Source: Candidatus Zixiibacteriota bacterium
GTDB lineage: Bacteria > Zixibacteria > MSB-5A5 > GN15 > FEB-12
Direction of reading: 5' to 3'
NCBI GenBank assembly: GCA_022571845.1
Contig: JACZXB010000001.1
Location: 541,953 to 605,952, forward strand
DNA: 64,000 nt
Part shown: piece after piece, positions 1,328-4,935 of the stretch
Position numbering within the stretch: position 1 is the stretch's first letter
Layout: each line of letters begins with the position of its first letter
The notes under the pieces: model-generated
What the model saw: only the letters and a program-made list of their open reading frames with translations
Databases searched by the model: none
What the model was told of the DNA's origin: nothing
Made by a program: the position numbers and the translations under genes

Positions 1328-2071
1328 TTAGCCGACATTTTGCAAGGCAGGGAATAAATCTAACATAAAGTTTGAGATGACCACCAGTAAGTTAAAGAAT
1401 ATTAACACACCAACTATCATCAGCAAGCCGCCCGAGATAATCTCAACAGCTCTGAAATGACGTTTGATAAAACTAAAAGCGCCAATAAAATAGTTGAACA
1501 AAAGAGCAGTAAGTATAAACGGTACACCCAGTCCGGCAGAATAGAAAGCCAGAAGCATGACGCCGGAAGTGACCGAGTCTTGCTGAGCGGCCAGAGTCAA
1601 AATAGAGCCGAGAATAGGACCGATGCAGGGCGTCCATCCAAAAGCGAAAGCAATACCAATAACTACAGAACCGATTATCCCCATCTTTTTGCTGCCGGTG
1701 TTAAATTTCATTTCATAATTGAGAGCTTTTATCTTAAACACTCCGGCTACGTGCATCCCAAACAAGAATACCAGGGCGCCCGCCACTTTGTTAAACCAGC
1801 CCATATATTGCTGCAACATTTCACCTATCCAGGTTGCCGTAGCTCCCAAAAGAATGAATACCAGAGAAAACCCGATTACAAAAAAGAAAGTGTTGATAAC
1901 AACTCGAAACATGTGTTCTTTTGATTTTTCCTTTGAACTCAAATCTTCAATTGATACGCCGGAAATAAAAGACAAGTAGCCCGGGATAAGGGGCAATACA
2001 CAGGGAGATATAAAGGACAGGAATCCGGCAAATATCGCGGTTGGAATTTCTATGGTCGGCTGTTCAAACAT
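1328..2071 (-). CDS. ccdA: Cytochrome c biogenesis protein CcdA family (thiol-disulfide transmembrane reductase)
   Basis: FISPCVLPLIPGYLSFISG and FGWTPCIGPILGSIL with the conserved Cys pair; multiple TM segments. Confidence 0.9.
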   Translation of the reverse strand: MFEQPTIEIPTAIFAGFLSFISPCVLPLIPGYLSFISGVSIEDLSSKEKSKEHMFRVVINTFFFVIGFSLVFILLGATATWIGEMLQQYMGWFNKVAGALVFLFGMHVAGVFKIKALNYEMKFNTGSKKMGIIGSVVIGIAFAFGWTPCIGPILGSILTLAAQQDSVTSGVMLLAFYSAGLGVPFILTALLFNYFIGAFSFIKRHFRAVEIISGGLLMIVGVLIFFNLLVVISNFMLDLFPALQNVG

Positions 2072-2152: not shown

Positions 2153-3348
2153 CTACTTGGAGTTCCTGGCTTTGGAAACTATTTCATTTTTTAAAAGAGA
2201 CATTAATTTTTGAGCGTCGATTTTGCTGGCTATCCTCTCAGCTACCCGGTCTGCCAGATCTGAAACAAACTGGCGCGTAAAGACTTCGACCTGGTCGATA
2301 GTTATATTCTCAATAGGGTCGCTCGAAACATTTGCCGACTTAGCAGTTGCTGCCGGTTTGCTTCTGGTGTCAATTACATTCCTGGAGCTTTCATTGCCAA
2401 AGCTCTCAACCTCTTTTTTGAAGTCTTCAATAAATTTCTCAACTCCGCCCGTCTTGCCACCTGCGACTTTTTTTGAATCCGAAGATTTCTTACTTGGAAC
2501 TGAAATCCGTTCAATCTGGTCGGCCGGTTTTGTCACTTTCAGGCTTTCCGATTGGGAAGCAGCTTTAGGTTTCTGGCCGCTTTTCGGGTTTATGACATCA
2601 TTTTTCATCTCATTTACGAACCAGTCATAGTCATGGTCTGCGTTCTCATTAACATTTTCCAGAAGAGACTCGTCCCCCAGCCCAAACTGATCGTGACCGC
2701 TTACGATATCAAGTTTACCTGTTTTTGATGGAGCCGGCTTGCCGGACTTTTTGATTTTGCCGGACTTTGCGCCCAAATTAACCGAACCAATCTGACCGGA
2801 AATATTAGTATCATCTTCAACATGATCAATCCCGATCATTTTCTCAACTACCTTTTTCTTCTTTCTCATTTTGGCAGTCCCGAACTGATCCATGACTTCG
2901 GAACCAGTCACATCTATCTCGTCCAGTCCCAGAGCCTGGTCAAGGAGTTCATCTTCCAAGCTTTCGTTTTGGGAATTATCAGCTTCCTCTTCGGGCTTTT
3001 TTGAATCCTTTGCCATATTATTTATTTTCGACAATAAATCGTTCAGGTCAAGGGGTAAATTCACTTTAATTTTATGAGGAATTCCGGGCTCATTTTCATC
3101 AGCCAAAAGTATTACAGGAATAGTGGCAAGCGCCGGTTCTGCCTGCCAACCCTGGATAAACCTGGACTTGTTTTTCCCGGAAAAGAGCTATTGGCAATAA
3201 TCAGATGGGGTTTGCTATGCTCCAGAACCTGAAAGGCCTTATCCCCGGATGAGACAGCAGTAACTTCAAAACCATTCTGTCTTAAAACTGTTTCTGCGGC
3301 AACTCTAGTGATATCAAACAGCTCTGCTATTAATACTCTTTTTCTCAT
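2153..3348 (-). pseudogene. Pseudo-receiver domain protein with long polar C-terminal region, split by a -1 frameshift (tracks 3112..3348 and 2153..3106)
   Basis: 3112..3348 encodes MRKRVLIAELFDITRVAAETVLRQNGFEVTAVSSGDKAFQVLEHSKPHLIIANSSFPGK. Receiver homology continues in the -1 frame as NKSRFIQGWQAEPALATIPVILLADENEPGIPHKIKVNLPLDLNDLL, running directly into ORF 2153..3106. Could be an indel or programmed frameshifting. Confidence 0.7.
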
Positions 3349-3383: not shown

Positions 3384-4193
3384 TCAGGACATATGAGAAG
3401 AGGCGTCTTCAAGAAATTTTCGATCTTCCTCCGATATATTTTCGATACCAACATCGTTTATTTTATCAAGAATCTCATCAACCCGTTTCATTGTATCCTC
3501 TGCTTTAAGGCGGTTTTTCTCGAATTTTGCCTCTTGTTTTTTGTGCCGAAGCTTTTTGAGCGTACTGCCAAATCTGGCAATTCGCCAGTCAGCTTTGACA
3601 AAAATAAGCCCAAAAATTGCACCCCCAAGATGAGCAAAATGTGCAATATTTCCCCCGCCCGCCAAAAAGCCTAAAATCATGAAGCCTGGTATGGCCCACT
3701 TTACTTTGACAGGAAACAAGAAATAAATGTAAAGGTATCTATGTGGAAACAGGAGCCAGTAGGCTATCAAAACGCCGTATATTGCTCCTGAAGCCCCTAT
3801 TACAGGAACTGGCAGCTCGGACTGAAAAATAAGCGTCAGTATTGCCCCCGACAGACCGGCTAAGATATAGAACTTTGCAAAGGATTTTTTTCCCCAGCTA
3901 AATTCTATTTCTGTCCCAAACATCCATAAGACAAACATATTAAAAAAGACATGCCAGAAATTTGCGTGCAAAAACATGTAGGTAAATGGCTGAAAAAGCA
4001 GGTTTGGAAATTCGGCAAAAAACCTGGCCGGAGTCAAACCCAAAAGCTCTGCTAAAGGAAAGTTAACCAGCGTCTGAATCATGAATACCGCAATGTTGGT
4101 AAGCAGCATCAGCTTTATGAACGGAGATACTGCCCCCGGGCCAATACTGAGCCTACGGTAACCACCGCCCCCGCTGTAATTATTAAAACGCAT
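3384..4193 (-). CDS. Rhomboid family intramembrane serine protease
   Basis: HVFFNMFVLWMFG, GASGAIYGVLIAY and HLGGAIFG motifs; multiple TM segments. Confidence 0.93.
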   Translation of the reverse strand: MRFNNYSGGGGYRRLSIGPGAVSPFIKLMLLTNIAVFMIQTLVNFPLAELLGLTPARFFAEFPNLLFQPFTYMFLHANFWHVFFNMFVLWMFGTEIEFSWGKKSFAKFYILAGLSGAILTLIFQSELPVPVIGASGAIYGVLIAYWLLFPHRYLYIYFLFPVKVKWAIPGFMILGFLAGGGNIAHFAHLGGAIFGLIFVKADWRIARFGSTLKKLRHKKQEAKFEKNRLKAEDTMKRVDEILDKINDVGIENISEEDRKFLEDASSHMS

Positions 4194-4242: not shown

Positions 4243-4440
4243 TTAGTCAGCTCTGTCTGAAGAGCTTTTACATTGATCATTGCATTTAGTTTGCTTCCTG
4301 TTTTGTTCATCTTCCACCGGAAGATACTCTGCCGAAGGTTCTCAGCCACCGCCAAGCCCCATTTTGGGGAAAACCCTTGTTGTCAGCAAATACCAGGCGA
4401 TTAGGAATATCAGCAGAAATACTATGTCAGTCCAGTTCAT
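4243..4440 (-). CDS. Putative small single-TM protein with an in-frame TGA (32 aa to the TGA, 65 aa if read through as Sec); candidate selenoprotein
   Basis: ATG at 4440: MNWTDIVFLLIFLIAWYLLTTRVFPKMGLGGG[TGA]EPSAEYLPVEDEQNRKQTKCNDQCKSSSDRAD*. TGA followed 16 nt later by the perfect hairpin ATCTTCC-GGT-GGAAGAT. Not in the supplied track. Confidence 0.35.
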
Positions 4441-4553
4441 TATACTCTCTCGTTAAAGTTCAGCTAAGTCAATATAATATAGAAGCTTCTAATAAATTAA
4501 AACAATTTGCAGCTGTAAAGTTCCTGACACAAAAACATCTGCTAAAAAGTAAT

Positions 4554-4608: not shown

Positions 4609-4935
4609 TTAAGCCAGTACTTTTTCTAATCTGGAAGTCAATTGCGACTTGCCCAATGCACCGACTACCTGGTCGACTACTTCTCCATTCTTGAAAAATA
4701 GCAGCGACGGAATAGACAAAATATTATATCTGCCGGCGGTCTTATTATTAGAGTCAACATCAACTTTGGTAATCTTGACCCGGCCTTCATACTCAACCGC
4801 TAATTCATCCAGAATTGGTGCAATCATTTTGCAGGGACCGCACCACTCAGCCCAGAAATCTACAATAACCGGAGTATCGGATTTTAGAACTTCTGCTTCA
4901 AAAGAATCATCTGTTACTTCTAAGGCTTTTGACAA
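4609..4935 (-). CDS. trxA: Thioredoxin
   Basis: VIVDFWAEWCGPCKMIAPILDELA, full-length 108 aa thioredoxin. Confidence 0.97.
   Translation of the reverse strand: MSKALEVTDDSFEAEVLKSDTPVIVDFWAEWCGPCKMIAPILDELAVEYEGRVKITKVDVDSNNKTAGRYNILSIPSLLFFKNGEVVDQVVGALGKSQLTSRLEKVLA

Follow-up and report, generated by a model that had tools for sequence, protein, structure and literature searches.

We analysed a stretch of 64,000 nucleotides from the genome of a Candidatus Zixiibacteriota bacterium (NCBI GenBank assembly GCA_022571845.1, contig JACZXB010000001.1, positions 541,953 to 605,952 of the forward strand; hereafter the window, numbered from its first letter). Judging from sequence comparison, a small gene on its minus strand contains an in-frame UGA that is almost certainly read as selenocysteine (Sec). 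Taken as a whole, the gene very likely encodes a minimal membrane selenoprotein that serves as a thioredoxin-recycled redox centre; of its parts, the redox mechanism, in which a membrane-held selenol is recycled by thioredoxin, is put forward as rather probable.

The open reading frame (ORF) runs from 4440 to 4246, is followed by TAA at 4245-4243, and is read directly from the window as MNWTDIVFLLIFLIAWYLLTTRVFPKMGLGGG-TGA-EPSAEYLPVEDEQNRKQTKCNDQCKSSSDRAD*. It comprises 32 codons with one hydrophobic helix, the TGA and 32 further codons. An earlier model-made reading of the window from its letters alone (the sequence-only reading) had proposed this ORF together with its in-frame TGA and 32-codon extension, and all three lie where it placed them.

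Conservation of the in-frame UGA

A loose-threshold search of 61 relatives returned matches in 54 of them, and nearly all good matches hold exactly one internal TGA. A profile search of the phylum combined with inspection of the loci then defined a set of 69 distinct in-phylum sequences. All 69 have TGA at the same column, while the terminal stops of the same genes are mixed (TAA 30, TGA 21, TAG 18). Because the in-phylum sequences are related, these counts do not represent independent events, though many genera and families are covered. None of the homologs ends at the TGA; frame, hairpin and UGA are all kept, and the frame past the UGA stays open for at least 12 codons in every one. The two alternative frames meet a stop within 10 codons in 12/69 and 37/69 homologs, versus 0/69 in frame. 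The family is found in most members of the bacterial order of the window and in about half of its phylum.

These comparisons bear on the possibility that a frameshift into an overlapping frame, or a genome-wide reassignment of UGA, explains the open frame. The overlapping frame noted by the sequence-only reading does exist and is open to 4212 in the window, but it is closed early in part of the homologs and thus not conserved as open, and the frameshift reading fails with it. Reassignment is countered by the use of UGA as a terminal stop within the same gene family. For both, the conserved feature is limited to the in-frame UGA with its selenocysteine insertion sequence (SECIS), and we consider either explanation extremely improbable.

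A wider profile search of 252 out-of-phylum genomes found the family in 29 of them, spanning 27 families. These members have in common the core LPK/RLGVxTUMxxxC, and the Sec column holds UGA in 28 of the 29 and Arg (CGA) in the remaining one. Among 97 members, the base following the UGA is never T. SelA, which is present in 114 of the 252 genomes, is present in 29/29 carriers (hypergeometric 1.1e-11). The alternation between UGA and Cys that had been suggested for this column is not seen: no Cys form of the family occurs among the matches in 386 genomes, and the family is Sec-only save for the one Arg variant. That variant (L220, genome G376, match near 3075-3191) belongs to a SelA-positive genome and has TAA seven codons after its CGA; no SECIS-like hairpin is apparent there, and it may represent natural decay following loss of the UGA.

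As a separate observation, one locus (L151:313-390 in G038, family f3) contains a small single-helix Cys-rich ORF (..ILPRLRHEPVGCEKC..) with a weak match to the family profile. This ORF sits downstream of a gene for a P-loop GTPase that looks like FeoB, and it may be either a distant Cys relative or a mere look-alike.

The SECIS hairpin and the selenocysteine machinery

Downstream of the UGA, the window contains the perfect hairpin ATCTTCC-GGT-GGAAGAT that the sequence-only reading had pointed out, with GGU 24-26 nucleotides (nt) past the UGA. Folded alone, this hairpin is unremarkable (z = -1.1; 31/200 shuffles fold equally well), and the SECIS question is therefore settled by comparison. The apical loop is GGN or GUN and begins at +24 in the majority of in-phylum members; a second class has an AGUU loop. 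Within the first loop class (44 ungapped sequences), 92.9% of cells pair and 53 double-sided changes are counted versus 14.2 in shuffles, with 0/500 shuffles reaching 53. Shifting the pairing register removes the covariation signal, and the AGUU class covaries likewise on fewer sequences. For this analysis, the hairpin sets were chosen by loop letters and register, and 4 members whose hairpin is located elsewhere were excluded by hand. The pairing percentage is somewhat flattered by this sorting, which does not explain the double-sided changes. A codon-resampling control on hairpin stability showed a modest effect only (mean z -1.05), and covariation is stronger SECIS evidence than fold stability.

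The published bacterial SECIS model places a G within the first two loop positions and the loop 16-37 nt from the UGA (PMC13188914). The window hairpin fits this model, with its GGU loop at +24 conserved by covariation. Six members of family f2 (L029, L068, L070, L072, L079 and L082) have a hairpin with a GGN or GUN loop about 15 nt further 3'; its loop falls around +36 to +39, on or outside the far edge of the published range.

The genome of the window is 98.8% complete and encodes the full Sec machinery. More specifically, selA (match 1.1e-122), selB (6.3e-99) and selD (1.6e-116; G000:C2:167049-167969, L048) are all present, together with a tRNA-Sec scoring 71.3 bits against a 47-bit cut-off and having the anticodon TCA. 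An in-frame UGA also occurs in selD itself, and a hairpin with a GUU loop lies at +21 after it. The search for selA, selB, selC and selD that the sequence-only reading had called for thus recovers all four, and the objection that the organism does not decode Sec fails. Across the phylum, SelA is present in 122/134 genomes; the selA match of one relative (G086:C64:9957-11036) carries an in-frame TGA of its own, possibly an assembly error.

One out-of-phylum member (L223) is a single-ORF fusion in which a transmembrane (TM) helix and the motif LPKMGVPTU are followed, in frame past the UGA, by a whole thioredoxin domain (WCAPC; PF00085 6.2e-29), and which carries its own GGUC-loop hairpin. The fusion speaks for read-through of the UGA and also links the family to thioredoxin.

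Against this body of evidence stands the explanation that translation simply ends at the TGA, an alternative already noted in the sequence-only reading; the product would then be a conserved membrane peptide of 32 residues, and the hairpin an RNA element with no bearing on it. Better conservation of the N-terminal half than of the tail speaks for such a peptide, as do the use of UGA as terminal stop in 21/69 of these genes and the lack of significance of the single-sequence hairpin taken alone. It is strongly contradicted by the UGA column (TGA in 69/69 despite mixed terminal stops), by an open frame that this frame alone maintains in all members and by a SECIS-type loop with covariation. The confinement of out-of-phylum carriers to SelA genomes and the thioredoxin domain in frame behind the UGA of L223 likewise oppose it, and we regard an ordinary stop as very unlikely.

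Architecture, neighbourhood and a proposed redox role

Proteins of the family are 50-65 residues long with a single helix. AlphaFold2 predicts for the window protein a helix at residues 3-23 with a predicted local distance difference test score (pLDDT) of about 90, and disorder past it. Members have a clearly hydrophobic helix with about 7 residues between the helix window and Sec. Net charge between helix and Sec is positive in 91/96 scored members (flank TR..PK in the window protein), which by the positive-inside rule suggests an N-out, C-in orientation with a cytoplasmic Sec tail. A recurrent second thiol is the Cys five residues past Sec (U+5), found in 55/97 members. The CxxxC-like pair (KCNDQC) to which the sequence-only reading had drawn attention in the tail varies even within the genus (KCNDELK, KCNDERK, NGNDEPK), and we dropped it as a conserved feature. 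The features of the locus are listed in Table 1, including the nearby trxA and ccdA, both of which had been claimed and were found.

Table 1. Features of the selenoprotein locus in the window
Feature	Position	Strand	Basis
Small membrane gene, predicted selenoprotein, 65 codons (codon 33 = UGA/Sec) + TAA	4243..4440	-	Same-frame homologs across the phylum and beyond
In-frame UGA, residue 33, predicted to be read as selenocysteine	4342..4344	-	UGA column conserved in homologs
Bacterial SECIS hairpin, 7 bp, GGU loop +24..+26 after UGA	4309..4325	-	Covariation
Predicted transmembrane helix, residues 3-23	4372..4434	-	AlphaFold2; hydropathy and charge across members
Possible ribosome-binding site GAGAGAG ahead of ATG	4445..4451	-	Suggested by the sequence alone
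trxA, thioredoxin WCGPC, directly upstream, probable redox partner	4609..4935	-	PF00085 1.9e-34; adjacency conserved in the phylum, recurs outside
Rhomboid protease, directly downstream, GASG + HLGG motifs	3384..4193	-	PF01694 9.6e-31; synteny
Short receiver-like domain, conserved neighbourhood member	3112..3348	-	PF00072 below cut-off; synteny
Hypothetical protein, 317 aa, conserved neighbourhood member	2153..3106	-	No Pfam match; synteny
CcdA/DsbD-type membrane electron carrier (ccdA)	1328..2071	-	PF02683 5.7e-15; synteny

In families f1, f2 and f4 of the phylum the gene order is trxA, the selenoprotein gene, rhomboid, short receiver, hypothetical protein, often ccdA, and then DUF2064. Family f13 retains trxA, with a CoA-binding protein and OsmC. 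Outside the phylum, a thioredoxin gene lies directly upstream in L201. In L199 and L200 it is two genes upstream, with a TlpA-like protein encoded in between; in L209 and L228 it is directly downstream, and in L210 (G236) the distance is about 2 kb. Two unrelated lineages (L142 of family f13, and L210) have OsmC-like genes next to the selenoprotein gene, neighbours that mildly favour (organic) hydroperoxide chemistry. At two loci of family f16 (L139 and L140), the selenoprotein gene is immediately preceded by two genes resembling acyl-CoA dehydrogenases and one resembling a 3-hydroxyacyl-CoA dehydrogenase; these replace trxA and rhomboid.

We propose that SelB, together with the Sec-tRNA (anticodon TCA), would decode the UGA at 4344-4342 as Sec, guided by the hairpin at 4325-4309. 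The N-terminal helix would serve as an inner-membrane anchor, N-out and C-in to judge by charge, and would hold Sec within a juxtamembrane motif, LPKxG..U, about 7 residues past the helix at the cytoplasmic membrane surface. The tail after Sec would be flexible, its first 12 or so codons doubling as the SECIS. The selenol would act as a thioredoxin-recycled redox centre on a membrane-associated oxidant or protein thiol, for which a hydroperoxide, a quinone or a disulfide are candidates. Where a Cys is present at U+5, it would resolve the oxidised selenium; in members without it, thioredoxin or the fused thioredoxin domain may do so directly. A broader formulation, which we offer tentatively, is that of a foldless selenoenzyme: one helix with a juxtamembrane Sec would constitute a reductase that is fuelled by thioredoxin and acts on lipid or quinone oxidants of the membrane. 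It would be Sec-only and distributed over many bacterial lineages, and would have been overlooked because it is tiny, cut at the UGA by gene callers and devoid of Cys homologs.

Several findings weigh against a thioredoxin-recycled selenoprotein. The tail is poorly conserved beyond the hairpin, its residue conservation (LPxED) may partly just mirror the hairpin, and after-UGA substitutions in close relatives show little synonymous excess. Selenoproteins usually have Cys homologs, which this family lacks, and the U+5 Cys is lacking in many members, those of the genus of the window included. Five family-positive in-phylum metagenome-assembled genomes have no SelA match (G005, G043, G057, G058 and G105), gaps that probably reflect incomplete assembly because all five are less than 95% complete. 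Outside the phylum, thioredoxin is near the gene at some loci but not all (6 of the 28 loci read, representing five distinct families, with L228 in addition), and rhomboid accompanies the gene in a single order only. Of the sequence-only proposal of a redox-active one-TM selenoprotein, the Sec part is upheld by the conserved UGA, hairpin and frame, and the redox part draws indirect support from the thioredoxin neighbours in distant lineages and the thioredoxin fusion.

Two other roles for a selenoprotein at this locus have to be weighed. First, the neighbouring rhomboid may have the protein as its substrate or partner, much as rhomboids act on single-TM proteins with N-out topology; the order trxA, selenoprotein gene, rhomboid is kept in families f1, f2 and f4, and the topology would suit such substrates. 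In families f13, f15 and f16, however, rhomboid is absent from the neighbourhood (L139 has a weak 29% match 3 kb away), as it is from the out-of-phylum loci tested, and it remains in place where the small gene is missing. Five in-phylum genomes with trxA and rhomboid in place and no match to the family hidden Markov model (HMM) show neither a TM-Sec nor a TM-Cys gene between the two. We judge a rhomboid partnership improbable. Second, the protein may bind a metal, or deliver selenium or metal at the membrane, as do small Cys-rich proteins associated with FeoB. Two observations lean this way: Pfam similarity to FeoB_associated, weak and short of the cut-off (E about 0.1), and the HMM match in family f3, the small Cys-rich ORF beside a P-loop GTPase reading as FeoB. 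No FeoB-like gene is seen next to the members inspected, one conserved chalcogen residue provides too few ligands, and the thioredoxin neighbours and fusion indicate redox chemistry; a metal role is thus unlikely, if somewhat less so than a rhomboid partnership.

Comparison with known systems

The family appears to be both new among selenoproteins and widespread. Scans of 30 in-phylum and 27 out-of-phylum members gave no significant NCBIfam match and no Pfam match above cut-off, and a profile search of the PDB gave no match. A recent catalogue lists 119 prokaryotic selenoprotein families (Zhang et al., 2026; PMC13188914). By their descriptions, none of these is a one-helix juxtamembrane LPKLGVxTU protein, although a predicted redox role is common to that catalogue and the present family (PMC13188914). 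According to its authors, deep-Sep may fail to detect selenoproteins without Cys homologs (PMC12013277), a blind spot that fits the absence of this family from the catalogue. Our literature search, covering open-licence papers only, was directed at the motif, at small selenoproteins of membranes and at selenoproteins linked to thioredoxin, and found no report. The family reaches roughly one in four of the SelA-positive out-of-phylum genomes sampled (29/114) and, being Sec-only, may escape homology methods that rely on Cys relatives.

Proteins of the FeoB-associated family (PF12669) are similarly tiny, with one N-terminal helix and a short chalcogen-bearing tail. The present family differs in its score (13.3 versus a 27-bit cut-off), in having one Sec rather than a Cys cluster, and in the neighbours found in the window, namely trxA and rhomboid.

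The eukaryotic selenoproteins SelK and SelS (SELENOK, SELENOS) are small single-helix proteins with Sec in a flexible cytosolic tail, and their partners are the Derlin rhomboid pseudoproteases. The bacterial proteins resemble them in small size, a single predicted helix, a Sec in a tail predicted to be flexible and an adjacent rhomboid gene; by the charge rule, they may also share an N-out, C-in orientation. Unlike SelK and SelS, the bacterial members need the post-Sec tail for the SECIS, and their rhomboid link is local to one order. No member matched SelK_SelG (PF10961) in the Pfam scans; PF10961 was also not found in the genome of the window, in a search whose control matched nowhere either. 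Homology to SelK and SelS was set aside for want of Pfam support, and the resemblance is best taken as analogy only, not membership.

Finally, the present family is linked to thioredoxin-family selenoproteins and membrane-tethered thioredoxins by its functional neighbourhood and by one member being fused to a thioredoxin domain. It differs from them in where the Sec is placed, which here is a foldless juxtamembrane segment outside the thioredoxin fold. A selenol at the membrane surface beside thioredoxin, with almost no protein around it, would offer a compact test of Sec function without an enzyme fold.
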